A stretch of DNA of 38,594 nucleotides from Actinomycetota bacterium (lineage in GTDB: Bacteria > Actinomycetota > Actinomycetes > Nanopelagicales > Nanopelagicaceae), in the NCBI GenBank assembly GCA_947451045.1, contig CANFXM010000009.1, positions 1 to 38,594 on the forward strand, written 5' to 3'. The position numbers were made by a program, and so were the translations under genes. The notes below the pieces were generated by a model. It had not been told where the DNA came from. It made no database searches and worked only from the letters and a program-made list of their open reading frames with translations. This document shows, piece by piece, positions 1 through 14,776 of this stretch (positions are counted from its first letter, which is position 1; each line of letters begins with the position of its first letter).

Positions 1-798
1 GAGAGCGGCGTGCGCATTGATCACCGCTTCATTTCATCGGCAACAGCTGATCTACCGATTCGAATCTACACACCAGAGGGTCCGGGGCCATTCAATGCCT
101 TTATTTATTACCACGGTGGCGGCTGGGTATTTGGTCATATTGATCGATATGACGCACAACTAGTTTCCTTAGCCAAGAAAACTAATTCAGTAGTTGTATC
201 TGTCAATTATCAAAAATCACCTGAACATAAATTTCCGATTCCACATGATGATTGCTATGAAACTTTGGAATGGGTTGCCGCAAATGGTAAATACCTCAAC
301 ATCAATGTAAATAAAATTGGAGTGGGTGGAGATAGCGCTGGTGGAAATTTAGCGTCAGGTGTTGCATTACGTGCCCGCGATGAAGGCAAAATCAAATTGG
401 CATATCAGTTGTTGATCTACCCTGCTAACGGATTAGATTTTGAAGCACCTTCGTATATCAATAATGCAGAAGGCTATGGACTCACACGTCGCGGCATGAT
501 GTGGTTCTGGGAACAGTATTTGAATGAAAAAGACAAAAATAATCCTTATGCATTGCCACATACAGCAAAGTCATTAGCTGGTCTTGCACCTGTTGTCATT
601 ATTACCGCCGAATACGATGTGCTTCGCGATGATGGATTGCTCTATGCGAAAAAGCTCAAAGAGGCTGGTAACTATGTTGTTCATAAAGATTACGAAGGAC
701 ACATTCACGGCTTCTTTAGCCACGGTAAATATGTAGATGAAGGCATTGCCGTTCGTGACTTCTTTGCAGCCGAAATCAATAAAATACTTGCGAGCTAA
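1..798 (+). CDS. alpha/beta-hydrolase, HSL/acetylesterase type (5' partial)
   Basis: This is a serine hydrolase of the hormone-sensitive-lipase branch of alpha/beta-hydrolases, a family that cleaves short-chain esters and sometimes lactones. Numbered from a GTG at position 10, it shows the oxyanion-hole motif HGGGW (35-39), the nucleophile elbow GDSAGG (Ser109), Asp203 in EYDVLRDDG and His233 in HIHGF, a complete catalytic triad. The frame stays open to the first base of the window, and the family usually has more N-terminal sequence, so the true start probably lies upstream. There is no signal peptide in the visible part, so it is likely cytoplasmic. It is 3 bp from the RraA-like gene, in an operon with fucose-type catabolic enzymes. 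Removing O-acetyl groups from imported fucosyl sugars, or opening a sugar lactone, are both plausible jobs; this is inference. Confidence 0.88.
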   Translation, partial: ESGVRIDHRFISSATADLPIRIYTPEGPGPFNAFIYYHGGGWVFGHIDRYDAQLVSLAKKTNSVVVSVNYQKSPEHKFPIPHDDCYETLEWVAANGKYLNINVNKIGVGGDSAGGNLASGVALRARDEGKIKLAYQLLIYPANGLDFEAPSYINNAEGYGLTRRGMMWFWEQYLNEKDKNNPYALPHTAKSLAGLAPVVIITAEYDVLRDDGLLYAKKLKEAGNYVVHKDYEGHIHGFFSHGKYVDEGIAVRDFFAAEINKILAS

Positions 799-801
799 TT
801 A

Positions 802-1473
802 ATGTCAGCTCAACCATTTGTATTGCGAAGCGGATTAGAAGTTGACCTGCGAGTACGAAGCGCATTGGTCTCTGATTCACTTGACCTCATCGGAATCCGA
901 AACAATGTCATGTCGCGCGCAGTCACCCCGCTTATTTCTTCAATGAAAATTATGGGCTATGCATCCACTATTGAGTTTGTTGAAGGCAATGACTTTGATG
1001 CTCAAGATCCATATGGTCCTGCCATTGATTATCTGGATACTTTGAATTCAGGAGATGTTGCAGTGGTTGCAACAGGACATTCAACAAAGTCAGCCTTTTG
1101 GGGCGAACTATTTTCAACAGCTGCTAAGGGTCGAGGCGCGCTCGGGGTTGTCACCGATGGGCCACTTCGCGATACTCAAGAAATATTGCCTGTTGGATTT
1201 AGTGCATTTGGAATCGGAACCCTTCCCTTTGATTACAAGGGCCGCATGAAGGTGAGCAATGTGCATTCACGTGTGAATTGTGGGGGAGTCGAGATCGATC
1301 AGGGCGATTTCATCGTGGCTGATAATGACGGAGTTGCTGTTGTACCAGCTTCGAATATTGATGAAGTTATTACTCTGGCCAATGAGCGAGCACGTCGCGA
1401 AAGCACAGTGCTCAAGGAATTACTTGAAGGAAAAAGCGTTCGATCAGTATGGGATACCTATCGTGTGTTGTAA
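802..1473 (+). CDS. RraA-like family aldolase (candidate 2-keto-3-deoxyfuconate aldolase)
   Basis: This 223-residue protein belongs to the RraA / HMG (4-hydroxy-4-methyl-2-oxoglutarate) aldolase fold, a class of divalent-metal-dependent pyruvate aldolases and decarboxylases. The signature is visible as GEL (101-103) followed by GVVTDG (115-120) and Arg123-Asp124, which in the family form the pyruvate and metal site. The length is normal. Between a hydrolase and a fuconolactonase in one operon, the likely substrate is a 2-keto-3-deoxy sugar acid, giving pyruvate plus lactaldehyde. The family is functionally mixed (RNase E inhibitor-like and oxaloacetate decarboxylase members exist), so the family call is firm and the substrate is inferred. 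No strong Shine-Dalgarno sequence precedes the ATG; translation is probably coupled to the upstream gene. Confidence 0.85.
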   Translation: MSAQPFVLRSGLEVDLRVRSALVSDSLDLIGIRNNVMSRAVTPLISSMKIMGYASTIEFVEGNDFDAQDPYGPAIDYLDTLNSGDVAVVATGHSTKSAFWGELFSTAAKGRGALGVVTDGPLRDTQEILPVGFSAFGIGTLPFDYKGRMKVSNVHSRVNCGGVEIDQGDFIVADNDGVAVVPASNIDEVITLANERARRESTVLKELLEGKSVRSVWDTYRVL

Positions 1474-1494
1474 AAGAACAGTGGAGAAATCGCT

Positions 1495-2361
1495 ATGAGT
1501 CAAAAACCATTCATTGATGCACATCAGCATGTGTGGAAATATTCAGAACGTGAATATTCGTGGATTACCCCAGATATCACTGATTTGTTAGGACATGACT
1601 ATGTACAAGAACAAGTCAATCCTTCAATAGCTAAATTTGGCATTACGGGAACTGTCTATGTTCAGGCAGCCGATACCTATGATGACACTTTCTATATGTT
1701 CGCATCAGCATCAAAAAATCCACAGATCACTGGAATAGTGGGATGGGTCCCCCTAGATCGTACAGAAGAATCTATTGCCGCATTAGAAATTTTCACTAAG
1801 AATTCAATCTTCAAGGGTGTGCGAAACCTGACACATGATTACAGCAATTCAAAATATGAGTCAGATGATGCTTGGGTCTTACGCGAACCAGTGCTTAAGA
1901 CCTTAGGTGAAGTGGCTGCTCGCAACCTCTCATTTGATTATGTAGCAATCAAACCTGAACACACCCGTAATGTTCCTACAATTGCCAAGCGTTTCCCCAA
2001 CCTAACAATAATTGTTGATCACTTTGCAAAGCCAGATATCAAAGGTGGGCAATGGGAAGAATGGTTAGTGGAATTGAAAAAAGCTGCCGCATTTCCAAAT
2101 GTCTATACAAAATTTTCTGGACTCAATGTCTTATCTGATTGGAAGAAATGGACGATTGAAGATTGGCGTCCATATGTTATGGCGATGAAAGAAGCATTCG
2201 GAACTAATCGAATGATGATGGGAAGTGACTGGCCCTTTTCAAGTATGGCTAATGATTACGACACAATATGGAATGCACAGCTCGAACTCATCAAAGATTT
2301 TTCAGAAGAAGAGATTGATGATCTGAAGTATAAAACTGCAATCAAGGCATATCGCCTTTAA
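1495..2361 (+). CDS. amidohydrolase 2 family, L-fuconolactonase-like
   Basis: This 288-residue TIM-barrel metal hydrolase belongs to the fuconolactonase-like group (COG3618), which hydrolyses L-fucono-lactone or related sugar lactones to the open acid. The DAHQHVW motif at residues 8-14 supplies the N-terminal metal ligands. A His follows in a VDHFAKPD strand near residue 174, and the C-terminal catalytic Asp is in GSDWPFS near residue 245. GGAG lies about 8 nt before the ATG. Its flanking genes are an RraA-like aldolase and a sugar mutarotase, and a transport operon with five alpha-fucosidases lies 1.3 kb downstream. That makes L-fucono-1,5- or 1,4-lactone the best substrate guess. L-rhamnonolactone or another 6-deoxy-sugar lactone remains possible. 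Confidence 0.85.
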   Translation: MSQKPFIDAHQHVWKYSEREYSWITPDITDLLGHDYVQEQVNPSIAKFGITGTVYVQAADTYDDTFYMFASASKNPQITGIVGWVPLDRTEESIAALEIFTKNSIFKGVRNLTHDYSNSKYESDDAWVLREPVLKTLGEVAARNLSFDYVAIKPEHTRNVPTIAKRFPNLTIIVDHFAKPDIKGGQWEEWLVELKKAAAFPNVYTKFSGLNVLSDWKKWTIEDWRPYVMAMKEAFGTNRMMMGSDWPFSSMANDYDTIWNAQLELIKDFSEEEIDDLKYKTAIKAYRL

Positions 2362-2374
2362 GGATGGAGTAGTT

Positions 2375-2698
2375 ATGAAAAGAGTCGGTTCAGTAATCGG
2401 AATTGCAGATGGTGCTCGCGCGGAATACGAGCGCATTCACGCAGCTGTTTGGCCAGAAATCCTTGAACAAATTCGCAAAAGCCACATTCAGAACTATTCC
2501 ATTTATCGCCACGGCGATCTTCTCTTCTCCTATTTTGAATATGTAGGAAATGATTACGAAGGCGATATGAAAGCCATGGGAGATGATCCAAAGACGCAGG
2601 AATGGTGGTCACTTACTATTCCGATGCAAAAACCAATGGATGATCGCGCAGATGGTGAATGGTGGAAAACGCTACCTGAGGTATTCCATACAGACTGA
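2375..2698 (+). CDS. L-rhamnose/L-fucose mutarotase, RhaM family
   Basis: This 107-residue protein belongs to the L-rhamnose mutarotase family (COG3254, DUF718), small cytoplasmic dimers that interconvert alpha and beta anomers of 6-deoxyhexoses. His22, Tyr41 and the Trp77-Trp78 pair fall where RhaM enzymes carry their catalytic and ring-stacking residues. The gene begins 13 bp after the fuconolactonase. An anomer-specific dehydrogenase would need it, because alpha-fucosidases release one anomer. Linked GH29 genes suggest that L-fucose is the real substrate. Its 3' end overlaps the convergent FAH-family gene by 27 bp. Confidence 0.87.
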   Translation: MKRVGSVIGIADGARAEYERIHAAVWPEILEQIRKSHIQNYSIYRHGDLLFSYFEYVGNDYEGDMKAMGDDPKTQEWWSLTIPMQKPMDDRADGEWWKTLPEVFHTD

Positions 2699-3520
2699 TT
2701 CAATCTCTCCAATACCTTCAATACCGGTACGAACAACTTGTCCGGGCTGAAGATATTTTGTTGGATTCAATCCCATCGCAACACCAAATGGTGTACCTGT
2801 ATTAATGACATCTCCAGGAAATAACTCCATAAATTGGCTGATGTACCAAACAATGTGATTGATTCCAAAAAGTAAATCACTTGTACGTGAGTCTTGTCGC
2901 ATTTCGCCATCGACGCTGCACCATAAACGTAAGTCATGTGCATTTATTTCATCACCAGTAACAATGCATGGACCAATCGGATTAAATGTTGGAAAAGATT
3001 TCCCCTTCATCCATTGTCCAGATCGTTCAATTTGCCAATGACGCTCACTCACATCTTGCGAGATTGTGTATCCCAAAATATGTTGAGCTGATTCAGATTC
3101 ATCCTTTAAATAGAGTGCGCGCTTACCAATAACGATTGCAAGTTCGACTTCGTAATCTGTTTTTAAGCTCCCTGGCGGAATAACAATCGCATCATTAGGC
3201 CCAACAACGCTATCGGGGGCCTTCATGAAGATAATTGGTTCAGGGGGAGTCGCCGCATTTGTCTCTTTGATGTGCAACAAATAATTTAGGCCCACACAAA
3301 TAACTTTTGTGGGGTGAGCAATGGGTGAACCAATCCGTAACGATTTGTTATCAACTCGTGGCAGTACAGAAAGATCTGCACTTGCTACTTTCTGGTAACC
3401 CCCGTTGCTCAGTGTTTCGCGATCCCAATCTGGAATTAAAGAGTCAACAAAAATCGCTTCTGTGCCAACTAAAACGGCTGGCTTTTCATGGCCAGCTTCT
3501 CCCAATCGGGCTATACGCAT
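2672..3520 (-). CDS. fumarylacetoacetate hydrolase family protein (candidate 2,4-diketo-3-deoxy-L-fuconate hydrolase)
   Basis: This 282-residue protein has a short N-terminal domain and the C-terminal FAH beta-roll. Visible family motifs are VGLNYLLHIKE, PEPIIFMKAPDSVVGP, the metal-binding DYEVELAIVIG with its two Glu residues, SQDVSERHWQ with the third acidic ligand, and GKSFPTFNPIGP. FAH-family enzymes hydrolyse C-C bonds in acylpyruvates. In non-phosphorylative L-rhamnose and L-fucose catabolism, a member cleaves 2,4-diketo-3-deoxy-acids to pyruvate and lactate. The gene is transcribed against the mutarotase and diverges from the transporter operon. GAAAGG lies about 8 nt upstream of its ATG. 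The locus therefore carries both an RraA-type aldolase and this hydrolase, which could serve alternative endings of the pathway. The substrate is inferred from context. Confidence 0.85.
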   Translation of the reverse strand: MRIARLGEAGHEKPAVLVGTEAIFVDSLIPDWDRETLSNGGYQKVASADLSVLPRVDNKSLRIGSPIAHPTKVICVGLNYLLHIKETNAATPPEPIIFMKAPDSVVGPNDAIVIPPGSLKTDYEVELAIVIGKRALYLKDESESAQHILGYTISQDVSERHWQIERSGQWMKGKSFPTFNPIGPCIVTGDEINAHDLRLWCSVDGEMRQDSRTSDLLFGINHIVWYISQFMELFPGDVINTGTPFGVAMGLNPTKYLQPGQVVRTGIEGIGEIESVCMEYLR

Positions 3521-3689
3521 CTAAAAACCTTTCTCACGAATTATCCAATATCCTATAGACAAATCCCCAAAAATCCTCCAAGATTCCCTCTATGCAGTTC
3601 CAAGCCCTGGAGCTGTTCTTCTGCACTATGGATTCCTTCTCGTGGGGATTTTCTGGTGCGAGGTTACATTCGTTACAGAAGGAGTTTGA
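3521..3689. promoter_or_regulatory. divergent promoter region between FAH-family gene and fucoside operon
   Basis: This 169-bp region must drive both the leftward FAH-family gene and the rightward transport and fucosidase operon. A canonical AGAAGGAG sits about 7 nt before the binding-protein ATG. Nine bases at 3561-3569 (AAATCCCCA) recur as an exact inverted copy at 3643-3651, about 82 bp apart. No convincing -35/-10 pair stands out, and no regulator gene is adjacent. Confidence 0.5.
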
Positions 3690-5069
3690 ATGAAGTCATC
3701 GTTCCGAGTCTCCGGAAAGTCAGTAGTTGCAGTTAGTGCACTTACTTCGGCTTTTGCATTGGTCCTTAGTGGTCTCTCGATTACCCCAGCGAGTGCAGCC
3801 CTAGGAACAGCACCGGTAACACTCACAATTCAACATGAAACAACTGGAGATCGTCCAGAACTTGAATGGCATGCAGTAGCAGCAGCATTCGTTAAGTTGC
3901 ATCCAAACGTCACTATCAAGTATTCACCAATTACAAATGAAGCTAAGGGTGGAACAAACCTTCAGGTTATTACATCTGATGGAACTCCAGATATCGTCCT
4001 ACTTCCATTGAACTCAAATGTGTATACACAGGTTGTAAAAGGTAAAGGCATGGTTCCACTTGATGGAATTTTTGCTGCTGATAACACTGTAAAGCGCATT
4101 GGGCCACCAGCTGCTGCTTTGAAGCAAGCAGATGGTCACTACTATGCAACACCTCACTCTGTTGTTTATTACAACGTGCTTTGGACAAACCCAGATGCAA
4201 TCAAGAAGGCCGGTGCTAAGGCTCCAGCTAATGGACACTTTGCATCAGTTGCACAACTCATTGCATTCAGTAAGGCATGTAACAAAGCTGGTTATGCCGG
4301 ACTTGCAATTGGTGGAAAGACAAACTTCCAAGCTTCTTGGATGTTTGACTCAATGATGCCGTCAGCTGTCACAAAGAAGGCACTCAATAACTACATCAAT
4401 AGCTACAAGCCAGACGTTGCAATAACTGCTAACTGGACTGATCCAGGAATCATCAAGACTCTTGATGCACTTGGAGCAATTGCTAAGGGTGGCGTTTACC
4501 AAAATGGTTACCTAGGCATGGATCTAGATCAAGCAACTGCATACTTTACAGCTGGAAAATCATGCATGCTCCTTGGTGGAACATGGATGCCAGGTGGTGC
4601 TTTCAAGACTGAAACCGATAAAGGTGCTATGAAATTCACACCAGGTTTTGCAGTATTGCCAGGAGTAGTTGCTGGATCAAAGGCAACTCTTACTCCTTAT
4701 TACGGTGATGCCTACGGTGTACCAGTGAAGTCAAAGAACCAAGAATGGGCTTTGGAATTACTTCGCTTCTTCATCAGTGATACAGGACAGAAGATTGGCA
4801 GCGTTGACGCAGCCGGAAATCTTCCAGTGGTCAACACAGTGAAAGCATCTTCTGATCCTAAGGTCACACCACAGGCAGTCCAAGATGTGCTTGCATTTGT
4901 TGCAACAGATGGAGCTCAATCAGGATGGACTTCTGAAGTACCTGGCGCATACGGCCAGACCTTCCTAAATCCATTGATCCAGAAATTACAAGAAGGTGGC
5001 ACAACTTCTGCTGCAATCGCAGCGGCACAGCAGGCCAAACTTATGGACGTGCGCAAGAACGGTCTCTAA
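3690..5069 (+). CDS. extracellular sugar-binding protein of an ABC transporter
   Basis: This 459-residue family 1 solute-binding protein captures sugars outside the membrane for an ABC importer. Residues 1-36 form a Sec signal peptide: basic start, hydrophobic core, and a predicted ASA|ALG cleavage site. The mature protein opens with a beta strand (APVTLTIQHETTGDRPELEW) typical of this fold and has the normal length. There is no lipobox cysteine, although Gram-positive binding proteins are usually lipoproteins, so the mode of surface retention is unclear. It is the first gene of the operon, 71 bp ahead of the permeases. Five fucosidases downstream imply that the ligand is a fucose-containing oligosaccharide, by context only. 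Confidence 0.93.
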   Translation: MKSSFRVSGKSVVAVSALTSAFALVLSGLSITPASAALGTAPVTLTIQHETTGDRPELEWHAVAAAFVKLHPNVTIKYSPITNEAKGGTNLQVITSDGTPDIVLLPLNSNVYTQVVKGKGMVPLDGIFAADNTVKRIGPPAAALKQADGHYYATPHSVVYYNVLWTNPDAIKKAGAKAPANGHFASVAQLIAFSKACNKAGYAGLAIGGKTNFQASWMFDSMMPSAVTKKALNNYINSYKPDVAITANWTDPGIIKTLDALGAIAKGGVYQNGYLGMDLDQATAYFTAGKSCMLLGGTWMPGGAFKTETDKGAMKFTPGFAVLPGVVAGSKATLTPYYGDAYGVPVKSKNQEWALELLRFFISDTGQKIGSVDAAGNLPVVNTVKASSDPKVTPQAVQDVLAFVATDGAQSGWTSEVPGAYGQTFLNPLIQKLQEGGTTSAAIAAAQQAKLMDVRKNGL

Positions 5070-5112
5070 GCCGTACTTTCGCAAGTAGTAATTTCTGTTA
5101 GTAATTAAAGGC

Positions 5113-5210
5113 TTCGGCCCTGAGTTGAATTGAGGAAGAGATGTCAGTGAAGAACGAAAGTCCTTCAAAGCAAGTTTCAACCTCATCAGCTCAGGGCCGA
5201 AATCTTTTTT
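5113..5210 (+). promoter_or_regulatory. long RNA hairpin with T-tract overlapping the permease start (candidate attenuator)
   Basis: Bases 5113-5128 pair with 5186-5201 (16 pairs, one G-U). After a 2-nt bulge (5129-5130), 5131-5135 pair with 5181-5185. The 21-pair stem encloses a 45-nt loop holding the permease ATG (5141). Its inner arm includes GAGG of the permease ribosome site. The stem is followed at once by ATCTTTTTT (5202-5210), as in an intrinsic terminator. It could lower permease expression relative to the binding protein. Pairing is read directly; function is inferred. Confidence 0.55.
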
Positions 5211-6103
5211 CACGGAAGAAAAAAGCTCGCATCGGTTTAGATGCAATAAATATCCGAAGCGCCCGAATCACTTTGATTCCAGTTTTTCTCCTACTTTTTA
5301 TTTTTCTAGCACTTCCTATGTTCAATTCTTTCAAACTCAGCTTTTCTCGCTGGGGAGGTTTTGGACCGGTCGAATCTGCTGGGTGGACTAATTACCAACG
5401 ACTTATTTCTGATCCTCAGATGCATTACTCATCGAAGATCACAATTATTTACGCATTCACAGTTGCTTTTTTTGTAGTTGCTGTTGGAGTGTTGTTGGCA
5501 GCGGCCGTGAGCGCGAATGTGCGCGGCCACAAAGCCATGAAAATTATTTGGTTTTTCCCAGGTATTGCACCTCCCACTGCTGTTGCAATTTTCTGGAGCA
5601 GCAGCTTTCAGCCAGATAGTGGTGTCGTAAATATCTTTTTGAAAAGGATTGGCCTAGGTTCTAATCACGCATTGTTAGCCAGCTCCCATACCGCCCTTTT
5701 CCCGGTAATGTTTGTGGGAATATGGAGTGCGGTGGGATTCGCATTCTTGGTAATCCTTGGCGCAGTTGAACAAATTCCTGTTTCACTTCGTGAAGCTGCA
5801 CACGTTGATGGAGCAAATGTTTTCCAACAATTTACCAAAATAACTTTGCCACTTATTCGGCCAATCCTGATGACAATTTTTACGCTCGAAGTTATTTGGA
5901 CTTTCAATGGCTTTACCGTCGTATGGGCTATGACAAATGGTGGCCCGGCAGATTCAACATCGATTTTGCCAATATTGGCGTATAAAGAAGCATTTAGATA
6001 TGGCCGCTTTGGTACCGCCGCTGCAATGGCAGTTATCACTGGAATTTTCTTGATGATAGTTGGTGCTATTGGAATTCGCCTGAGTCGATCGGAGCAACAG
6101 TAA
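5141..6103 (+). CDS. sugar ABC transporter permease, MalF/UgpA type
   Basis: This 320-residue membrane permease has a cytoplasmic N-terminal tail of about 45 polar, basic residues and then roughly six hydrophobic segments. The ABC-permease EAA loop is visible as EAAHVDGANVFQQFTKITLP, where the cognate ATPase docks. It pairs with the next gene to form the transmembrane channel. GAGGAAGAG precedes the ATG, but part of it is buried in the predicted stem of the candidate attenuator. The stop codon overlaps the next start (TAATG). No ATPase gene is present in the cluster, so a shared MsiK/UgpC-like ATPase encoded elsewhere is expected, as is common for actinobacterial sugar importers. Confidence 0.93.
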   Translation: MSVKNESPSKQVSTSSAQGRNLFSRKKKARIGLDAINIRSARITLIPVFLLLFIFLALPMFNSFKLSFSRWGGFGPVESAGWTNYQRLISDPQMHYSSKITIIYAFTVAFFVVAVGVLLAAAVSANVRGHKAMKIIWFFPGIAPPTAVAIFWSSSFQPDSGVVNIFLKRIGLGSNHALLASSHTALFPVMFVGIWSAVGFAFLVILGAVEQIPVSLREAAHVDGANVFQQFTKITLPLIRPILMTIFTLEVIWTFNGFTVVWAMTNGGPADSTSILPILAYKEAFRYGRFGTAAAMAVITGIFLMIVGAIGIRLSRSEQQ

Positions 6104-6939
6104 TGAAAGCTCTTATTTCCAAATTTTTCGCGCAATTAGGTGTTTGGGGTTGGACCGCACTTGTCCTTGTTCCTTTTTTCTTTATCTTACTTTTTGGAAC
6201 AAAAGATACTTCTGATATTTATGGCAAACCATTAAGTTTGATTTACAAACCGCACTTTCAGAATTTCGCAAGTGCGTGGAACGTAGGTGGGGTTAATGGC
6301 GCAATTGGTAAATGGTTTATTAATACCGGATTACTGGTTACAGTCGCGCTCGTAGTCTCGCTCTGTGTGGCTGTACCTGCCGCATATTTCACAATCTTCT
6401 TGCCTCCTAAAGCAAATCGTCGAGTGATGGTTACGGTCTTGAGTGGCACAGTTGTGCCGACTATTTTGTTAGTGATCCCTTACTTCAAGGCGTATAACCA
6501 ATACCACATGCTCAATAAACCTATTTTTGCAGGTTTGGCATATGGCGTACTTGCAATCCCTACAACATTCTTATTGATGAATCGCTTCTTCTTAGATTTT
6601 CCACGTGAAGTTTTGGAAGCAGGATTACTCGATGGACTATCGAATTCAAAAATTTTTAGAAAACTGGTTCTGCCATTATCAGTTGGACAAATTGTCTCAG
6701 TTGGAATTCTTACACTGATCTGGGCTTGGGGCGATAGTCAGATTGCAATTGTGCTTTTACAAACTCAGGATTCGCAACCAATCTCCGTTGGAATGCTCTC
6801 ATTCGCTGCGGACTTCACCACAAATTTGGGTGCCACATTTGCTGGTCTTTCAATGGCAGCAATTCCACCAGTAATTCTCTACATCATTTTGAGCAAGTAC
6901 GTCACTAAGGGAATTGCCCTTGGTGGAATTACAAAGTAA
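6103..6939 (+). CDS. sugar ABC transporter permease, MalG/UgpE type
   Basis: This 278-residue second permease subunit of the carbohydrate importer has about six membrane segments. Its EAA-type loop reads EAGLLDGLSNSKIFRKLVLP, the docking site for the ATPase. Length is normal for MalG-like subunits. It overlaps the upstream permease by one base (TAATG), implying translational coupling and equal stoichiometry. It ends 11 bp before the first fucosidase, which ties transport and intracellular hydrolysis into one transcript. Confidence 0.93.
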   Translation: MKALISKFFAQLGVWGWTALVLVPFFFILLFGTKDTSDIYGKPLSLIYKPHFQNFASAWNVGGVNGAIGKWFINTGLLVTVALVVSLCVAVPAAYFTIFLPPKANRRVMVTVLSGTVVPTILLVIPYFKAYNQYHMLNKPIFAGLAYGVLAIPTTFLLMNRFFLDFPREVLEAGLLDGLSNSKIFRKLVLPLSVGQIVSVGILTLIWAWGDSQIAIVLLQTQDSQPISVGMLSFAADFTTNLGATFAGLSMAAIPPVILYIILSKYVTKGIALGGITK

Positions 6940-6950
6940 GGGAAAACCTC

Positions 6951-8321
6951 ATGGCGGAAGAGACAGTTTTTGATTTAGAAAAACTCGCTACACGCATGAA
7001 TGATTATTACCCACTTATCAATGGACACGAGAAACGTTGCAAGAATTGGTTTACAGGCGCTGGGCTTGGAATGTTTATTCATTGGGATCACACAAGTGCA
7101 CAGGGAATTGAAATCTCTTGGCCATTGGTGGGCGGAGTTTTTGCACTCCCAGGCGGCAAAAATGTCTCCGTTGATCAGTACCACTCAACTGAAACAACCT
7201 TTAATCCAACTCAGTGGGATCCCAAAGAGATTGCAAAGCTAGCAAAAGATGCAGGAATGGCTTACGTAGTATTTACATCTAAACATCACAACGGTTGGGC
7301 AACTTGGCCATCTAAAGTGGGAAATAGAAATATAACTTCGTCTCCATATGGAAAAGCTGGTGGAGATATCTTGCGCACCTACGTTGATGCAGTGCGCGCA
7401 GAGGGCTTGAAAGTTGGAGTGTATTACTCACTTTCTGACTGGGGACATGAAGATTATTTAGCATGGAAAGATGAATATCTCCCCTATGTATTTGGTGATA
7501 GCGCACCAATGGGAACACCAGAACAATGGCAGCGTTATAGAAAGTATCTAAAAGATCAACTCACTGAAATTCTTACAAACTATGGTCAAATCGATATGTT
7601 GTGGTTTGACGGCGCTTGGGAGCGCAGTGATGAAGATTGGAACTCGAAAGATATCGGGGACCACATTCGCTCACTATCACCAGATACTTTGATTAATGAT
7701 CGCCTCTTTACTCAAGGCGATTTCCGCACACCAGAACAATGGATTCCTGCTCAACCACTTCCTGAACCATGGGAATGTTGTATGACAATGAATTATTCAT
7801 GGGCCTACGTTCCATCAGATACAGCATTCAAATCACCATATGAAATCTTGCGTACTTTGATTGAAGTTGTATCTCGCGGTGGAAATCTCTTGCTCAATAT
7901 TGGGCCACGTGGAGATGGATCATTAGTTCCAGAAGAGCGCGACATAATGGTTGAACTTGCCAAGTGGATGAAGACAAATAAGGAGAGCGTTGTTGGTGTT
8001 ACTCCAGGTCTTGAACCATGGCAGTTCTATGGCCCAAGCACTCAAAATGGAAACCTTGTCTACCTACATCAATTTGCAATGCCAACTGAGTCAGTTGTTG
8101 CTCGTGGCATCAAAGTTGCTCGAGTGAAATCAGTAAAGATTCTTGGTAGCAATGAAGAATTGAAATTTACTCGCCGTACTGCAATAAACGACATTTCCCT
8201 CAAAGATCCAGATGGCGAGATCATTATTGATGTTAAGGGCAAGAACCTTTCAGGTCTCATTCCTGTCATTGTTCTTGACCTCAGTGCCAACCCCGAAGAT
8301 GTTTCACTTCGGAATTGGTAA
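6951..8321 (+). CDS. GH29 alpha-L-fucosidase, array member 1 (type A)
   Basis: This 456-residue glycoside hydrolase family 29 enzyme releases terminal alpha-L-fucose by a retaining double-displacement mechanism. The nucleophile is Asp220 in LWFDG. Glu262 in RTPEQW is the likely acid/base, 42 residues later, the same spacing as Asp224/Glu266 of the Thermotoga maritima enzyme. The fucose-binding His44 (FIHW) and His112-His113 are present, although the usual HHDGF reads HHNGW. A C-terminal beta-sandwich follows the barrel. There is no signal peptide, so it acts in the cytoplasm on imported oligosaccharides. It is clearly paralogous to the fourth array member and more distant from the other three. 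Its stop overlaps the next ATG. Confidence 0.95.
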   Translation: MAEETVFDLEKLATRMNDYYPLINGHEKRCKNWFTGAGLGMFIHWDHTSAQGIEISWPLVGGVFALPGGKNVSVDQYHSTETTFNPTQWDPKEIAKLAKDAGMAYVVFTSKHHNGWATWPSKVGNRNITSSPYGKAGGDILRTYVDAVRAEGLKVGVYYSLSDWGHEDYLAWKDEYLPYVFGDSAPMGTPEQWQRYRKYLKDQLTEILTNYGQIDMLWFDGAWERSDEDWNSKDIGDHIRSLSPDTLINDRLFTQGDFRTPEQWIPAQPLPEPWECCMTMNYSWAYVPSDTAFKSPYEILRTLIEVVSRGGNLLLNIGPRGDGSLVPEERDIMVELAKWMKTNKESVVGVTPGLEPWQFYGPSTQNGNLVYLHQFAMPTESVVARGIKVARVKSVKILGSNEELKFTRRTAINDISLKDPDGEIIIDVKGKNLSGLIPVIVLDLSANPEDVSLRNW

Positions 8322-9646
8322 TGGACGCATTCAAGCGCTTTGAGCGTGAAGTTCCAGAATGGTTCCTTGATGCCAAATTAGGTTTTATGGTTTCGTGGGG
8401 AGCTTTTTCTGTTCCAGCGTGGGGCGAGCCAATTGGTGAGCTTGGAACTATTGATGATTGGAAACATTGGTTTAAGCACAATCCTTACGCGGAGTGGTAT
8501 TACAACACCATTCGCATTGAAGGATCACCGGCAAGGGAATTTCATAAGAAGAATTTCAATGATTGTGATTATGACGACCTACTAGATATGTGGAAAGCAG
8601 AAAAATTTAATCCCGACGAGTGGGCGAAATTATTTGCGTACGCAGGCGCGCAATACATCGTGCCGCTTTCAAAACACCATGATGGGATCACGCTCTGGGA
8701 TGCTCCCGGGACGGGTACTCGTAACACAGTGCATCGCGGACCAAAGCGTGATCTCATCGGTGATATTGCAACTGCTGTTCGTAAGGCAGGTATTCGTTTT
8801 GCTGTGTATTACTCCGGTGGCTTGGACTGGGAAGTTACAAAAACACTTCCGGCTATTTCAGATACCAATCAGGGTGGCGAAGGCATGCAGCGTCCAGTTG
8901 ACGCCGCTTATTCGATGTACGCATATGAGCACGTCATTGATTTGATCGACCGTTATAAGCCAGATGTTTTATGGAATGACATTGAATGGCCCGATTTTGC
9001 AAAGCGCGACGGCGCATATTCACTCGCTGCACTTTTTGATTATTACTACAAAGTTGTGCCCCACGGTGTTGTCAATGATCGCTGGGGTAAGGAAACTCAT
9101 TCAGATTATGAAACGAGTGAATACCAGTACATGTCTGATAGCGAAGGTGCTGCTGCGTGGGAAAATTGTCGCGGAATCGGACTTTCATTTGGTTATAACC
9201 AAGTTGAATCAGAGCAGCACTCGCTCAATACCGAAAGCGCACTTCGTCATTTCTTAGATATTGTTTCGCGCGGTGGAAATTTTCTTCTCAATGTTGGTCC
9301 GACTGCATCAGGTGAAATTCCAGATATTCAAAAGAAAGTTCTTATGGGGCTGGGCGATTGGATGGCAATTAATTCTGGCGCCGTTTATGCAACCCGCGCC
9401 ATCAAGGAAATTCCTGCATCAGATACACCATGGGTGCGCTGGGCAAAGAAAGGCAATTCTGTATTTGCCTACATTGACGCTGAGGGAAGTGTTGAATTCA
9501 TTGCTCCTGCCAGCCTTGTCAATGATAAGAAAGCCACAATTTTTGGTGGCTCAGCGATAACTGCCACTCGCAATGGCGACAAAGTTTCAATGACAATTCC
9601 GACTCCAAAAGTGCCGGGACCAACTGTTATTGAATTTTCACACTAA
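8321..9646 (+). CDS. GH29 alpha-L-fucosidase-like, array member 2 (type B), fucose-binding His replaced
   Basis: The start is set at the ATG at 8321, which overlaps the previous stop (TAATG); an in-frame TTG at 8315 would extend into the upstream gene and adds nothing conserved. The 441-residue GH29 barrel has the nucleophile Asp220 in LWNDIEWP, Arg254 in NDRWG, Glu267 in TSEYQ as the likely acid/base, the Glu58-Trp59 pair and His119-His120. The normally invariant His in FIHWG is Ser25 here (FMVSWG), while members 3 and 5 keep it. The enzyme is probably folded, but its substrate preference or activity may differ. No signal peptide is present. It is paralogous to members 3 and 5. Confidence 0.93.
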   Translation: MDAFKRFEREVPEWFLDAKLGFMVSWGAFSVPAWGEPIGELGTIDDWKHWFKHNPYAEWYYNTIRIEGSPAREFHKKNFNDCDYDDLLDMWKAEKFNPDEWAKLFAYAGAQYIVPLSKHHDGITLWDAPGTGTRNTVHRGPKRDLIGDIATAVRKAGIRFAVYYSGGLDWEVTKTLPAISDTNQGGEGMQRPVDAAYSMYAYEHVIDLIDRYKPDVLWNDIEWPDFAKRDGAYSLAALFDYYYKVVPHGVVNDRWGKETHSDYETSEYQYMSDSEGAAAWENCRGIGLSFGYNQVESEQHSLNTESALRHFLDIVSRGGNFLLNVGPTASGEIPDIQKKVLMGLGDWMAINSGAVYATRAIKEIPASDTPWVRWAKKGNSVFAYIDAEGSVEFIAPASLVNDKKATIFGGSAITATRNGDKVSMTIPTPKVPGPTVIEFSH

Positions 9647-9666
9647 GCATCAATAAGGAGATAACC

Positions 9667-10980
9667 ATGGAATTTCAGAACTTCGAACGCTTCAATCGCC
9701 CAGTGCCAGCATGGTTCTCTGATGCCAAGTTTGGAATATTCATTCACTGGGGTGCTTACTCAGTACCTGCTTGGGCAGAACCAACCGGTGAATTGGGTGC
9801 TGTTGATGAAAGTGTATGGATGGCACATAACCCATATGCAGAGTGGTACTACAACACCATTCGCATTGAAGGATCACCAGCGCAAAAGCACCAACAAGAA
9901 GTTTATGGCGGCGCACCATATGACGATTTCCTAGATCAGTGGAAAGCAAGCAAGTTCAATCCAGATGATTGGGCCGCTCTATTTGCTAAAGCTGGGGCAC
10001 AGTATGTAATTCCAACTACTAAGCATCATGACGGAATTACTTTGTGGGATGCACCAGGTACAGGAACACGTAACACGGTTGCGCGTGGTCCAAAGCGTGA
10101 CTTGGTAGGTGCAATTGCTGAAGCAGTTCGCAAAGCTGGCATTAAGTTTGGCGTTTATTACTCAGGTGGTTTGGACTGGAGCGTTGATAACTTCCCTCCA
10201 ATGACAAAGAGCGAACACGTGCGCGGATACCGTCCAAGTGATGCTGCCTATGCAATGTATTGCTATGAGCACATTACGGACTTGATCAATCGCTATAAGC
10301 CAGATGTTTTATGGGATGACATTGAGTATCCAGATTTTGCAAAGCGTGAAGGCGCATATTCACTCGCTGCAATCTTTGATCAGTATTACAAGGCTGTTCC
10401 ACAAGGTGTCACAAATGACCGTTGGGGAGTTCCACATTCTGATTACAAGACAAGTGAGTACCAACATGGACTCGATAATGAGAGTGGAGCCGCTTGGGAA
10501 AACTGCCGCGGTATCGGACTCTCATTTGGTTACAACCAAATTGAGGACGAGAAGCACTACATGAGTATCAATGCCGCTCAGCACCACTTGATTGACATTG
10601 TTTCTCGTGGCGGAAATCTTCTGCTCAATGTTGGTCCAACTGCTGATGGTGAAATCCCTGCATTCCAACGCAAAGTTCTTGAAGGCATTGGCGCATGGAT
10701 GGCAGTCAATAAGGCAGCAATTTACGCCTCTCGCGTTGCAGAAGATGTGAAGCCATCTGATTCTCCTTGGGTTCGCTGGACTGCAAATGGCAAGAAGCGT
10801 TATGCAATCATTGATGCAACTGGTTCAGTTGAATTTGATGCACCAGAGAGTGCTGTTGATATCAAGAGTGCAACAGTTCTTGGTGGCGCAGCAATTGCAG
10901 TGACACGCAATGGTTCCAAAATATCAATGACTATCGCAGCGCCAAAGGTCGAAGGACCAACTGTCGTAGCTTTCAACTAG
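9667..10980 (+). CDS. GH29 alpha-L-fucosidase, array member 3 (type B)
   Basis: This 437-residue GH29 enzyme has every expected active-site element: His27 in FIHWG, Glu60 is replaced by context as Glu59-Trp60 in the PYAEW motif, His120-His121 in KHHDG, the nucleophile Asp218 in LWDDIEYP, Arg252 in NDRWG and Glu264 in TSEYQ. AAGGAG precedes the ATG at good spacing after a 20-bp gap, so it can be translated independently. It lacks a signal peptide and is cytoplasmic. It is very similar to members 2 and 5, evidence of repeated tandem duplication. It probably cuts a fucosyl linkage different from the type A enzymes, but the linkage cannot be read from sequence. Confidence 0.95.
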   Translation: MEFQNFERFNRPVPAWFSDAKFGIFIHWGAYSVPAWAEPTGELGAVDESVWMAHNPYAEWYYNTIRIEGSPAQKHQQEVYGGAPYDDFLDQWKASKFNPDDWAALFAKAGAQYVIPTTKHHDGITLWDAPGTGTRNTVARGPKRDLVGAIAEAVRKAGIKFGVYYSGGLDWSVDNFPPMTKSEHVRGYRPSDAAYAMYCYEHITDLINRYKPDVLWDDIEYPDFAKREGAYSLAAIFDQYYKAVPQGVTNDRWGVPHSDYKTSEYQHGLDNESGAAWENCRGIGLSFGYNQIEDEKHYMSINAAQHHLIDIVSRGGNLLLNVGPTADGEIPAFQRKVLEGIGAWMAVNKAAIYASRVAEDVKPSDSPWVRWTANGKKRYAIIDATGSVEFDAPESAVDIKSATVLGGAAIAVTRNGSKISMTIAAPKVEGPTVVAFN

Positions 10981-11001
10981 TCATACACGATTGATGTTGT
11001 G

Positions 11002-12378
11002 ATGGCCACTGAAACTACCGTTTTCGATAAGGAAGCGTTAGCCCCGAGGTTAAATGATTTTCATCCTCTTATCAGTGGTCATCAACAACGTTGTTCAGAG
11101 TGGTTTACAGGTGCTGGGTTAGGGCTTTTTATTTGCCTCGATCATGCAAGTCAACAAGGAATTGAAATGTCATGGCCGATGCTAGGCGATGTTAACTTTG
11201 CGCTACCTCTTGGTGGCCTTGTAACAGTTGAGATGTATCGTTCTACGGAAAGTACTTTCAATCCAACGAAGTGGAACCCAAAAGATTTTTTACAAAAAGC
11301 AAAAGATGCAGGTTGTAAATATGCAGTATTTACTGCAAAACATCACAGTGGTTGGGCAATTTGGCCTTCAAAATTTGGTGATAAAAATATTTCAACCTCT
11401 ATTTTTCAAAGAACAGGTCGAGATATTTTACGGGAATATGTTGATGCCGCACGTGAAGTCGGAATAAAGGTAGGAATCTATTATTCGTTAGCAGACTGGG
11501 GTCATGAGGGTTATTTGGAATGGAAAGATGAATACCGTCCATACATTTTCGGCGAAAGCCCTCCTATAGGAACTGCGGAGCAATGGGAATCATTTCGTCA
11601 GTACACAAAAGATCAATTGACTGAATTATTGACTGAATATGGTCCAGTTGATCTTTTATGGTTTGACGGTGTGTGGGAACGCAGTGATGAGACATGGAAC
11701 TCGAAAGATTTTGGAGACCACATTCGCTCAATCTCACCAAACACTCTCATCAATGACAGACTTTTTACTCAAGGGGATTATCGAACTCCTGAGCAATGGA
11801 TTCCAGCAAAACCGATTGCGGAACCTTGGGAATGCTGCATGACCATCAATTATTCATGGGCATATGTTCCAACTGATAAGACATATAAATCAACATATGA
11901 AATCTTGCGCACTCTTATTGAAGTTGTCTCACGCGGTGGAAATCTACTTCTAAACGTTGGACCTAAACCAGATGGCACTTTGGCAACTGAAGAAGCACAA
12001 ACATTAGATGATTTGGCAATCTGGATGAAGGTCAATAAAGAGAGTATTGAAAACGTGAGACCGGGTCTTGAAGATTGGCAGTATTACGGACCTTCAACAC
12101 AGCGCGGAGAGATTGTTTATTTGCATAATTTTGCGCTTCCACAAGAAAGTGTTGTTGTCCGTGGCGTTAAGGTTGCTCGACTCAAGTCTGCCAAAGTGTT
12201 AGGAAGTAATGAAGAACTTACATTTACACGCAGGACAGCAATTCATGATGCAGAGATGCCTGATCCTGACGGAGAAATAATTATTGATGTTCGAGGCAAT
12301 AAAGTCGACGGTCTTATGCCCGTCATTGTTCTAGATTTTGGTGGCAATCCGTCATCTGTACAGATTCGTAATTGGTAG
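11002..12378 (+). CDS. GH29 alpha-L-fucosidase-like, array member 4 (type A), His-Trp motif replaced by Cys-Leu
   Basis: The ATG at 11002 gives MATETTVFD, aligning with the MAEETVFD start of member 1; a GTG one codon earlier (10999) is the alternative. Neither has a good Shine-Dalgarno sequence. The 458-residue protein keeps the nucleophile Asp222 (LWFDG), the likely acid/base Glu264 (RTPEQW, again 42 residues on) and His114-His115. The fucose-contacting His and following Trp of the FIHW motif are Cys45-Leu46 (FICLDH), and HHDGF reads HHSGW. It is a close paralogue of member 1, with codons that look more AT-rich than its neighbours by eye. It may have altered specificity or reduced activity. 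Confidence 0.93.
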   Translation: MATETTVFDKEALAPRLNDFHPLISGHQQRCSEWFTGAGLGLFICLDHASQQGIEMSWPMLGDVNFALPLGGLVTVEMYRSTESTFNPTKWNPKDFLQKAKDAGCKYAVFTAKHHSGWAIWPSKFGDKNISTSIFQRTGRDILREYVDAAREVGIKVGIYYSLADWGHEGYLEWKDEYRPYIFGESPPIGTAEQWESFRQYTKDQLTELLTEYGPVDLLWFDGVWERSDETWNSKDFGDHIRSISPNTLINDRLFTQGDYRTPEQWIPAKPIAEPWECCMTINYSWAYVPTDKTYKSTYEILRTLIEVVSRGGNLLLNVGPKPDGTLATEEAQTLDDLAIWMKVNKESIENVRPGLEDWQYYGPSTQRGEIVYLHNFALPQESVVVRGVKVARLKSAKVLGSNEELTFTRRTAIHDAEMPDPDGEIIIDVRGNKVDGLMPVIVLDFGGNPSSVQIRNW

Positions 12379-12401
12379 AACCAAACTAAAAGGAGAAGAA
12401 A

Positions 12402-13736
12402 ATGGCAGAGCACCGCAAGATCACTGACACTAATGTGAACTGGGATCGTTTCAAACGTGATGTCCCACAGTGGTACACCGAAGCAAAGTTCGGCATATTT
12501 ATTCACTGGGGCGCTTACTCGGTACCTGCATTTGGTGAACCTATTGGCGAGCTCGGAACAATGGAAGCCAAAACTTGGTTTCCACATAACCCATATGCCG
12601 AGTGGTACTTCAACACAATTCGCATTGAAGGCTCTCCTGCACAAGAATTCCATAAGAAGACATATGGCAATGCACCCTATGACGACTTTTTAGATCAATG
12701 GAAGGCAGAGAACTTCAATCCGGATCAATGGGCAGAGCTGTTCCAATATTCCGGCGCACAGTACGTTCTACCTACAACAAAGCACCATGATGGAATCGCA
12801 CTCTGGCCAGCTCCTGGAACTGGAACTCGTAACACGGTAGATCGTGGACCAAAGCGCGACCTCATTGGAGATATTGCAACCGCAGTTCGTAAAAAGGGAT
12901 TACATTTCGGTGTTTATTATTCAGGCGGCTTGGATTGGAGCATTACAGATCTTCCACCACACAATGATGGATATGAGTTAGCACGACCATCGGATGCTGC
13001 ATATTCAATGTATTGCTACGAACATGTAGTCGACATCATTGATCGTTATAAGCCAGAAGTTATTTTCAACGATATCAATTGGCCAGATTTCTCAAAGCGC
13101 GAAGGTGAATATTCACTTCCTGCCCTCTTTGATTATTACTATTCACATGTTCCAACAGGAGTAGTAAATGATCGTTGGGGAATTCCACACTGGGATTACA
13201 AGACAAGTGAATACAAGATGAACTTGCACGTTGAAGATGGGGGGGTTTGGGAAAATAATCGCGGTGTTGGTTACTCATTTGGATATAACAAACTTGAAAC
13301 TGATGAGCATTACCTCGATATCAGTGGTCTACTCCATCACTTACTCGACATTGTCTCTCGTGGTGGAAATCTACTTCTCAATGTTGGCCCAACTGCATCA
13401 GGTGAAATTCCTGAATTACAGCAGAAAGTTTTGCGCCAAATGGGTGATTGGATGAAGATTAATTCCAAGGCTATTTACGCTTCCCATGCTGTTCCAGAGT
13501 TCAAGGCATCTGATGCACCATGGATTCGTTGGACTGGTGTTGGCAAAGAAGTATTTGCTCACATCGAATCAAGTGGAAAAACTACTTTCGAAGTTCCAGA
13601 ATCGTTAGTGGATGATTCAAGTGCGCATTTCCTCAGTGGAGAAAAAGCAACAATTTCTCGTAGTGGAAATCAAATCACTGTTGATATCGATGCGAAGCAC
13701 TCACCAATGGCAGTTCTTGCTTTCAAGCGCCGCTAA
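12402..13736 (+). CDS. GH29 alpha-L-fucosidase, array member 5 (type B)
   Basis: This 444-residue GH29 enzyme numbers almost exactly like the Thermotoga maritima fucosidase: His35 (FIHWG), Glu67-Trp68, His128-His129 and nucleophile Asp224 (IFNDINWP). Glu270 in TSEYK is the likely acid/base and Arg258 lies in NDRWG. The Trp before the nucleophile is Phe222 here, unlike the other four. It has about eight more N-terminal residues than members 2 and 3. AAAGGAG stands 9 nt before the ATG. It is the last gene of the operon, followed within 15 bp by a strong terminator. It has no signal peptide. Confidence 0.95.
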   Translation: MAEHRKITDTNVNWDRFKRDVPQWYTEAKFGIFIHWGAYSVPAFGEPIGELGTMEAKTWFPHNPYAEWYFNTIRIEGSPAQEFHKKTYGNAPYDDFLDQWKAENFNPDQWAELFQYSGAQYVLPTTKHHDGIALWPAPGTGTRNTVDRGPKRDLIGDIATAVRKKGLHFGVYYSGGLDWSITDLPPHNDGYELARPSDAAYSMYCYEHVVDIIDRYKPEVIFNDINWPDFSKREGEYSLPALFDYYYSHVPTGVVNDRWGIPHWDYKTSEYKMNLHVEDGGVWENNRGVGYSFGYNKLETDEHYLDISGLLHHLLDIVSRGGNLLLNVGPTASGEIPELQQKVLRQMGDWMKINSKAIYASHAVPEFKASDAPWIRWTGVGKEVFAHIESSGKTTFEVPESLVDDSSAHFLSGEKATISRSGNQITVDIDAKHSPMAVLAFKRR

Positions 13737-13748
13737 TAAATTCTAAAT

Positions 13749-13788
13749 AAAAAGCGGGTCCCACTCTTACGAGTGAGACCCGCTTTTT
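13749..13788. terminator. bidirectional rho-independent terminator
   Basis: An 18-bp stem with one mismatch and a TTAC loop has A5 at its left foot and T5 at its right foot. It therefore works as an intrinsic terminator on both strands. It separates the fucosidase operon from the convergent aldo/keto reductase. Confidence 0.95.
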
Positions 13789-13798: not shown

Positions 13799-14776
13799 TT
13801 AATCTCTAAACGGAGGCTGATCGAGTAGTTCTTCGTGAAGAGGACCAAGATCAGTTGAGAGTGAAGCGTTGAGCCCCGCTAGTTCATCTGCGCTCAATGT
13901 GATGCTGACGCCCTTGAATGAATCCAGAATTGACTCTGGACGTGTTGCACCAGGAATTGGAATTTCAACAGGTGAATTAGCAAGGTGCCATGCAATTGTT
14001 ATTGCATATGCAGATACACCTTTTGCTTTAGCTAATTCATCAAATGCATTGTACTTACCAGTTCCGACAGCGCCGGCATTACCAATTCCACCCATAGGTG
14101 ACCATGGTAAGAATGCGATTCCGTTTTCTTTACAGATCTCTAATACTTCTGCGCCGTGACGGTAGCGAGGACTCCATTCGTTTTGTACAGAGATGAGTCC
14201 ACCTTGTGCTGGAGTTCCACCAATTTTGATCGCCCGGCGAAGTTGTTCTGCATTGACGTTACTCACACCAACGTTGAGAACAATTCCGTGAGCTTTGAGT
14301 TTCATGACGTTTTCAAATTGTGTCTCATATGGCATGGTGTGATTCAAGCGATGATGTTGCCACAATTGAATCTTTTCTACACCGAGCTTTGCAGCTGATG
14401 CTTCAGCAGCACGATAGAGATAATGCTCTTCAGCGTTGCGACCTCCAGTACCAAACCAATCATTTCCTGGACCACGTGTGATTCCACCTTTAGTTGCGAT
14501 TACAACTTTGCTTTTCGCATCCGCCGAACCATTCCAAGTGCGAAATGCTTCGCCAACTAATTTTTCATTGTGACCGATTGTGTTCCATGTTGGAGCGTAA
14601 ATATCAGCAGTATCGAGCAAAGTGATACCAGCATCGAGTGCTGCATGAATCACGCTAATTGCTTGATCACGTTTTTCGAGAATCCATGCCTTTTCTGGCG
14701 GGAATCCTGACATTGGCATACAGCCAAGACCAATAGGAGAGACTTGATATGGACCGAGGGTTCTAGTTTGTGTCAT
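13799..14776 (-). CDS. aldo/keto reductase (candidate sugar dehydrogenase)
   Basis: This 325-residue NAD(P)-dependent TIM-barrel oxidoreductase belongs to the COG0667 group. The catalytic tetrad is visible: Asp and Tyr in LDTADIYAP, Lys in IATKGG and His in LWQHHR. The C-terminal cofactor-binding stretch reads IPIPGATRPESI. Some members of this superfamily oxidise L-fucose to the lactone. That would supply the step between the mutarotase and the fuconolactonase, and no other fucose dehydrogenase candidate adjoins the cluster. It is a separate transcription unit, convergent with the fucosidases, so the link is positional inference. GGAAAG lies about 8 nt before the ATG. Confidence 0.9.
   Translation of the reverse strand: MTQTRTLGPYQVSPIGLGCMPMSGFPPEKAWILEKRDQAISVIHAALDAGITLLDTADIYAPTWNTIGHNEKLVGEAFRTWNGSADAKSKVVIATKGGITRGPGNDWFGTGGRNAEEHYLYRAAEASAAKLGVEKIQLWQHHRLNHTMPYETQFENVMKLKAHGIVLNVGVSNVNAEQLRRAIKIGGTPAQGGLISVQNEWSPRYRHGAEVLEICKENGIAFLPWSPMGGIGNAGAVGTGKYNAFDELAKAKGVSAYAITIAWHLANSPVEIPIPGATRPESILDSFKGVSITLSADELAGLNASLSTDLGPLHEELLDQPPFRD

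Follow-up and report, generated by a model that had tools for sequence, protein, structure and literature searches.

A putative L-fucoside utilisation island with a fixed array of five GH29 proteins in a freshwater Nanopelagicaceae bacterium

The non-phosphorylating route of L-fucose breakdown proceeds through a mutarotase, a 1-dehydrogenase, a lactonase and a dehydratase, and is completed either by an aldolase or by a 4-dehydrogenase and a hydrolase that yield pyruvate and L-lactate; according to excerpts of the same source, the fucose and rhamnose routes share a 2,4-diketo intermediate, and BDH2 acts on L-KDF (PMC11199699). The marine AEGEAN169 lineage 'Ca. Indicimonas' is described, in excerpts of PMC11366302, as carrying an accessory operon for this route linked to a single-copy gene of glycoside hydrolase family 29 (GH29), with GH29 found in only 20% of the clade representatives. 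Excerpts of further sources describe a SAR202 isolate that grows better with fucose (PMC10444878) and freshwater Verrucomicrobia that are rich in GH29 (PMC5615132); fucosidase expression has been tied to a metagenome-assembled genome (MAG) of Verrucomicrobiota, the excerpts making no tie to Nanopelagicales (PMC10108472). The locus presented here, which combines candidates for the non-phosphorylating pathway with five GH29 genes, lies in a 38,594-base stretch of DNA from an actinobacterium of the family Nanopelagicaceae; the whole of this stretch is referred to as the window.

The window is the entire contig C9 of a 1,392,018-base genome in 73 contigs (G000; completeness 95.8%, GC 43−46%). From its first base it carries, in order, an esterase, an RraA-like protein, a lactonase, a RhaM-type mutarotase, an opposite-strand fumarylacetoacetate hydrolase (FAH)-family gene, a sugar-binding protein, two permeases and five GH29 genes (A1-B1-B2-A2-B3), followed by a converging aldo-keto reductase (AKR) gene. 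A preliminary description had named the genes of positions 1−13736, and strong Pfam matches bear out the importer parts, lactonase, RhaM, RraA-like, FAH, esterase and five GH29 calls; the FAH gene, for which no strand had been given, lies on the minus strand (Table 1). The locus is considered, with a probability of roughly 0.8, to be an L-fucoside utilisation island for ATP-binding cassette (ABC) import, internal GH29 hydrolysis and non-phosphorylating catabolism. The binding-protein-dependent importer, served by an ATPase from elsewhere in the genome, would take up short fucosylated sugars, and the five GH29 proteins, predicted to stay inside the cell, would free L-fucose or its variants. Flux would then run through the RhaM-type mutarotase, an AKR as L-fucose 1-dehydrogenase, the Amidohydro_2 L-fuconolactonase, an L-fuconate dehydratase and a short-chain dehydrogenase/reductase (SDR) as 2-keto-3-deoxy-L-fuconate 4-dehydrogenase to the FAH-type hydrolase, which would release pyruvate and L-lactate; the AKR, dehydratase and SDR of this scheme are encoded on a second contig, C36.

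The locus does not start at base 1 of the window but continues on C36, which carries the start of the esterase gene and the AKR gene and, in divergent orientation, genes for the 436-aa dehydratase (an enolase-superfamily protein), the SDR, a regulator of the FCD-GntR type and a second protein of the enolase superfamily. The end of C36 overlaps the window start: 119 bases are identical and 73 differences lie across the rest of 747 bases (window 1−747 versus C36 1−747), of which 66 fall at third codon positions; the protein changes at one residue. This overlap is taken here as an assembly break at which two strain haplotypes meet; the esterase haplotypes would point to closely related strains and to strong purifying selection in the sampled population. 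C36 is linked to the window by the contig-end overlap and by two congeneric genomes, in which the whole set from nrdJ to dinG stands in the same order on a single contig (C14 of G005 and C9 of G007, where nrdJ is truncated by the contig end). The two flanking parts of the island are on contigs C60 and C61 in G003, and in the more distant G021 the importer−GH29 part and the catabolic part are on separate contigs. The fuconate dehydratase and dehydrogenase that the preliminary description had suggested seeking upstream are both on C36; its view of a complete-looking locus holds in that, with C36, there are candidates for all steps, but the locus extends beyond base 1 and contains no ABC ATPase.

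Candidate enzymes for each of the six pathway steps are encoded by the window and C36 together. The dehydratase (C36 1955−3265, 436 aa) finds as its top Protein Data Bank matches the L-fuconate dehydratase entries 1yey, 2hne and 2hxt (561 bits, E 1.1e-167, nearly full length), followed by 4ip4 (503 bits) and 4a35 (477 bits), while L-rhamnonate dehydratase chains reach just 66 bits; a reference title points to 1yey as FucD, the L-fuconate dehydratase of Xanthomonas campestris. The AKR of C36, the candidate L-fucose 1-dehydrogenase, is closest to L-galactose dehydrogenases (E 4.6e-41), and the SDR is closest to 4dqx and then to 2ag5 (DHRS6, presumably BDH2), with 8y4j among its nine best matches. 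The lactonase, mutarotase and diketo-acid hydrolase families are all recognised above the Pfam gathering score. Taken together, the dehydratase, SDR and AKR of C36 lend support to the fucose pathway proposed in the preliminary description. Similar groupings occur elsewhere: from 121 relatives of B1, 79 loci were kept, 7 belonging to the clade itself and 72 lying outside it, and relatives of the five catabolic genes adjoin a GH29 gene in 14 of the 72, with at least three of the five in 19 (identity thresholds set here at 50% for dehydratase and SDR, 40% for AKR and FAH, and 24% for lactonase).

It is unlikely that the pathway instead ends in an aldol cleavage, in which the RraA-like protein would split 2-keto-3-deoxy-L-fuconate into pyruvate and L-lactaldehyde, the AKR at the island edge (AKR2) would reduce the lactaldehyde, and the SDR and FAH protein would be secondary. 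An aldolase route (route 1) exists in other bacteria according to excerpts of PMC11199699, and the distant G021 keeps the RraA-like gene (60% identity) in its catabolic module; however, this locus and many outside ones have both the SDR and FAH genes, RraA-like matches occur in just 2 of the 72 (26−27% identity), and the NCBIfam cut-offs for RraA and aldolase are missed. The SDR−FAH route is complete without the RraA-like protein; the earlier name of RraA-like aldolase is sound as a family match (6e-31) and too strong where it implies that an aldolase is needed. Removal of O-acetyl groups by the esterase, which the preliminary description also allowed for, is a tentative proposal.

The window encodes five proteins that match Alpha_L_fucos, the Pfam family of GH29 (E 5e-76 to 1e-91), and the fixed-order array is found in five congeneric genomes (G000, G003, G005, G007 and G021). 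Pocket residues were read from an alignment of the five paralogs of these genomes with the Thermotoga maritima fucosidase. At position 34 (T. maritima numbering), where the His presumably faces the sugar and contacts its O4, all five genomes have His in A1, B2 and B3, Ser in B1 and Cys in A2. The nucleophile Asp and the acid/base Glu are retained in all five window proteins and in all copies read, the alignment being less sure in the acid/base column of the A type; A-type proteins, and their relative in locus L145, further carry Ser in place of the Glu66 of most others. His34 is listed as a conserved first-shell residue in a table of PMC7711723. Across the 79 loci, a set collected by likeness to B1, position 34 is His in 110 of 123 readable GH29 proteins (2 of 125 were unreadable and were dropped), Ser in 8, all of them B1 with that of L060 included, and Cys in 5, all of them A2; L053, L056, L057 and L058 are apparently contigs of G003, G005, G007 and G021 and are not independent of the five-genome alignment. 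Outside the clade His34 is present in 92 of 93 readable proteins, the exception being the Ser34 B1 of L060. A second, family-based sample shows His34 in 30 of 31 readable proteins (2 of 33 unreadable) and Asp in one; the Asp34 protein, from L157, also differs at the Glu66, Tyr171 and Arg254 columns. Among deposited structures, His34 is present in 7snk (an alpha-L-fucosidase whose score equals that of 7ljj, an exo-alpha-L-galactosidase) and in 7pls (tissue alpha-L-fucosidase), and 7xsg, presumably a ClAgl29 enzyme of Cecembia lonarensis, has Asp; a 7xsg-like alpha-L-glucosidase identity for B1 was dropped, as its position 34 is Ser and not Asp.

In trees, B1 and the L060 protein form one clade (100/98), and A2 forms another (100/100). 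Locus L059 holds A1, B1, B2 and B3 (N-terminus broken or misread), with no N bases and no room for A2 between B2 and B3; because of this gap A2 would fit a late duplicate, in an A tree that is poorly resolved. L060, recorded as uncultured Micrococcales, carries an importer, A1- and B1-like (Ser34) GH29 genes, two opposite-strand B-type GH29 genes and a fuconate dehydratase relative, and by its gene content is a related multi-GH29 locus in another lineage. In G021 (L050), B2 and A2 are 90−92% identical to those of the window and A1, B1 and B3 only 76−83%; recombination may lie behind such unequal divergence within the array. The 904−914 aa open frame listed across B2 and A2 in five genomes is not a fusion by stop read-through, as TAG ends B2 in 5/5 and a second in-frame stop lies in the 18-nt spacer of G007 and G021.

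The loss of a first-shell residue from B1 and A2 could mean that they are inactive paralogs, retained in a non-catalytic role or drifting to loss, although the sequences make this very unlikely. Variants H36N and H36I at the equivalent residue of BiAfcB have been made (excerpts of PMC7711723), and the ratio of nonsynonymous to synonymous substitution rates (dN/dS) among four close genomes is slightly higher for A2 (0.049−0.074) than for A1, B2 and B3 (0.020−0.054). All ratios, however, are far under 1: for pairs with measurable dS they are 0.018−0.083 over the five paralogs, with B1 at 0.018−0.069, A2 at 0.041−0.074 and A1 itself reaching 0.083; dS against G021 approaches saturation for most pairs, with no value for one. 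The catalytic residues are also kept, and the change at position 34 is fixed (Ser in 8/8 B1, Cys in 5/5 A2). Because B1 and A2 are without His34 yet keep the catalytic residues at dN/dS of 0.02−0.07, the earlier description of five alpha-L-fucosidases is probably too simple; the count of five GH29 proteins stands, and the plain fucosidase label is too strong for 8315−9646 and 10999−12378, which on their position-34 residues are named here GH29 proteins and not alpha-L-fucosidases. It is probable that B1 and A2 are functional and that their ligands differ, and the array would be retained as a set of differing specificities, three members with His34 (A1, B2 and B3) and two altered.

A bolder proposal, possible although rather improbable, is that B1 and A2 are alpha-L-glycosidases, not fucosidases, that act on residues altered at C4, either fucose in 4-O-acylated, methylated or sulfated form or a 6-deoxy-L-hexose epimeric at C4, for example L-quinovose, and that the island is a funnel. 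Because the SDR would oxidise C4, C4 epimers would converge on one 2,4-diketo intermediate; dehydration of the other sugar acid could fall to the second enolase-superfamily enzyme, and removal of acyl groups to the esterase. If this were true, one pathway would give a streamlined lake bacterium access to an entire range of decorated deoxy-sugars.

Within the locus, the importer consists of a SBP_bac_1 binding protein and two BPD_transp_1 permeases, and no ABC ATPase is found among the locus genes. A MalK-type ATPase candidate is located on another contig (C4, 25351−25473), and a further match on C3 falls under the family cut-off; candidates for all parts of an importer of the MalEFGK kind are present in the genome. 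The selfish import and internal hydrolysis predicted in the preliminary description would fit the N-termini, read by eye: the binding protein has a signal-peptide-like start, and the GH29 proteins have no hydrophobic signal. The FCD-GntR protein encoded on C36 is the probable regulator of the divergent AKR/dehydratase promoter and would act through AATACTATTTCGTATAGTATT, an inverted repeat of 21 bp that has perfect 8-base arms and a 5-base spacer and lies 25 bases 5' of the dehydratase gene. The repeat was noticed by reading the sequences; GntR-type half-sites (TNGT-N-ACNA forms) were absent from ten short regions. With one mismatch and any spacer allowed, six of the 41 genomes searched (G000, G003, G005, G007, G012 and G021) have it, each once and in identical form, the other 35 being without a site and the backward control giving 0; the six have a dehydratase of at least 72% identity, and the site is absent from three genomes with one of 63% (G002, G018 and G019), G027 (75%) being outside the 41-genome sample. 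The intergenic region between the FAH and binding-protein genes contains TTATCCAATATCCTATAG, which G000 and G007 share unaltered and from which G005 and G021 each depart by one change, a comparison of four sequences only with no chance control. The hairpin between B3 and AKR2 is a probable bidirectional terminator; a consensus terminator scan listed no terminator, this hairpin included.

Several observations weigh against the fucoside reading of the island. The NCBIfam equivalog cut-offs are missed by the lactonase (136.8 of 400 bits), FAH protein (248.6 of 500), mutarotase (45.1 of 99.6) and esterase (328.1 of 350), and because of this the first three are named by family and context only; the top NCBIfam match of the dehydratase is an L-talarate/galactarate model (138.7 of 500 bits), far under its cut-off. 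In the SDR, of the three carboxylate Arg residues, the equivalents of Arg148 and Arg214 align with 8y4j and Arg192 is off by one column; Trp252 is replaced by Met (numbering of the excerpted PMC11199699, offset by five from 8y4j by the count made here). The inverted repeat was not found at the importer/GH29 promoter. Fucose alone also does not explain C36 4797−7913, which encodes a second mandelate-racemase-type enzyme (4797−5912), a 2-hydroxyacid dehydrogenase and a glycerate kinase that might form a second sugar-acid pathway; the dehydrogenase and kinase are linked to the island in G000, G003, G005 and G007, with a 377-aa open reading frame (ORF), transporter-like by eye, between them in G003, G005 and G007.

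These last genes bear on a wider alternative, a minority view here, in which the island serves galacto-configured L-sugars generally, L-galactose as well as L-fucose, and the glycerate kinase (TIGR00045, 261.6 bits against a cut-off of 168) and 2-hydroxyacid dehydrogenase handle L-galactose-derived glycerate. The affinity of the C36 AKR to L-galactose dehydrogenases points the same way, as does the fact that GH29 includes exo-alpha-L-galactosidases, 7ljj being among the matches; 7snk, of equal score and nearly the same length, keeps His34. The dehydratase, in contrast, is closest to L-fuconate dehydratases, although these also accept L-galactonate, and the kinase and dehydrogenase may form a separate neighbour unit.

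A search of 60 genomes, the source genome included, recovered GH29 in 7; among 36 other genomes of the genus, it is present in 4 (G003, G005, G007 and G021), many of the searched genomes of the genus being incomplete. A sixth GH29 match in G021, on its contig C54 (L052), is a distant GH29 beside outer-membrane-receptor-like and sulfatase-like proteins (by eye), and C54 is probably contamination from another phylum. Among 296 sampled Actinomycetota genomes, own included, 38 have a GH29 match (37 above the family cut-off); the maximum is five, and the next-highest count, four, is in a 9.2-Mb genome. In the genus, 10 of 37 genomes (own included) have a close fuconate dehydratase (63−100% identity), and free fucose may therefore be used more widely than fucosides. 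The island fills the interval between nrdJ and dinG, which is 23.2 kb in G005 and G007 and elsewhere 0.1 kb (G024), 1.2 kb (G001), 3.7 kb (G015), 4.3 kb (G014) or 15.0 kb (G036); these are the 7 of 13 genomes with both genes placed on one contig, where nrdJ is in pieces in G001 and another partial copy of it lies elsewhere in G024; G013 was dropped for having only a weak nrdJ fragment on the contig. The island also occurs in public MAG records titled 'Bifidobacterium breve' (L053, L055 and L057), whose B1 is 93−94% identical to that of the window and whose titles look wrong. Further along the window, a SAM-IV riboswitch (19383−19508, 93 bits) stands just 5' of an ORF at 19519 that is homoserine acetyltransferase-like by eye.

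Table 1. Positions, strands and supporting evidence of the island features within the window.
Feature	Position	Strand	Evidence
Esterase, hormone-sensitive-lipase type, C-terminal part	1..798	+	Abhydrolase_3 8e-71 (Pfam); 5' part on C36
RraA-like aldolase/decarboxylase family protein	802..1473	+	Pfam 6e-31
Putative L-fucono-1,5-lactonase	1495..2361	+	Amidohydro_2 5e-37; NCBIfam L-fucono-1,5-lactonase 1e-39 (under cut-off); top PDB 4dlf/4dnm
RhaM-type sugar mutarotase, putative L-fucose mutarotase (FucM role)	2375..2698	+	rhaM 4e-31
FAH-family hydrolase, putative 2,4-diketo-3-deoxy-L-fuconate hydrolase (FucG role)	2672..3520	-	FAA_hydrolase 3e-62
Divergent FAH/binding-protein intergenic region containing TTATCCAATATCCTATAG	3521..3689	.	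Sequence comparison
ABC sugar-binding protein, signal-peptide-like N-terminus (by eye)	3690..5069	+	SBP_bac_1 4e-21
ABC permease 1	5141..6103	+	BPD_transp_1; top NCBIfam match UgpA, under cut-off
ABC permease 2	6103..6939	+	BPD_transp_1
GH29 A1	6951..8321	+	Alpha_L_fucos; His34 present, Ser at Glu66 position
GH29 B1, T. maritima-like	8315..9646	+	Alpha_L_fucos; His34 to Ser, Phe32 to Met
GH29 B2	9667..10980	+	Alpha_L_fucos; checked pocket residues match T. maritima
GH29 A2	10999..12378	+	Alpha_L_fucos; His34 to Cys, Trp35 to Leu, Ser at Glu66 position
GH29 B3	12402..13736	+	Alpha_L_fucos; checked first shell matches T. maritima; second-shell Trp222 to Phe
Strong hairpin with A/T runs on flanks, between converging B3 and AKR2	13749..13788	.	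Folding z -9.1
Aldo-keto reductase 2 (AKR2), island edge, possibly lactaldehyde reduction	13799..14776	-	Family match; adjoins B3 in G005 and G007

Small-genomed lake actinobacteria are usually seen as living on small, labile molecules; for a genome of 1.4 Mb, an accessory island of 23 kb with five GH29 genes would be a large commitment by some species to a single sugar of algal or plant origin. The fixed paralog set, two members of which have an altered pocket, is well suited to testing how specificity evolves in GH29, and B1 and A2 may point to natural fucosides or fucose-like residues beyond those of known fucosidases. The operator-like repeat would serve as a simple marker for this regulon in related genomes. 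Among the matches listed from the open-licence literature (titles and abstract starts), no report of such a locus or GH29 array in freshwater acI/Nanopelagicales was found.

Among the closest described systems is the non-phosphorylating L-fucose pathway of X. campestris and Herbaspirillum huttiense (FucM-A-B-C-F-G), which the island resembles in holding candidates for the six steps in one locus, with a dehydratase near X. campestris FucD; it differs in its ABC importer, its five-copy GH29 array, an AKR as the fucose dehydrogenase candidate, and its extra RraA-like, esterase and second enolase-superfamily genes. The AEGEAN169 operon, as excerpted in PMC11366302, is similarly an accessory fucose operon tied to GH29 in a bacterium of nutrient-poor water, but it has one GH29 gene, whereas the freshwater-lake Actinomycetota locus has five, of which two show an altered pocket. 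In Arthrobacter, Pseudarthrobacter, Agromyces and other Actinomycetota, fucose clusters likewise place relatives of the dehydratase, SDR, FAH, lactonase and AKR genes by a B-type GH29 gene (the 14 loci above); 52 of the 72 outside loci hold one GH29 gene, however, 19 hold two and one (L060) holds four. B1, B2 and B3 align well with the T. maritima alpha-L-fucosidase (1hl8/1odu) and keep its nucleophile Asp224 and acid/base Glu266, but B1 departs from it with Ser at His34 and Met at Phe32. ClAgl29A and ClAgl29B are termed alpha-glucosidases in excerpts of PMC10154630; 7xsg is, like B1 and A2, without His34, but it has Asp34 where B1 has Ser and A2 has Cys, and a DW motif where the EW motif is intact in B1, so that on present evidence B1 and A2 are not of the ClAgl29 type. 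The non-phosphorylating L-fucose pathway and its pairing with GH29 are already known; to our knowledge, the array of five, its two members without His34 that are fixed across species, the position of the island and the candidate operator are new.

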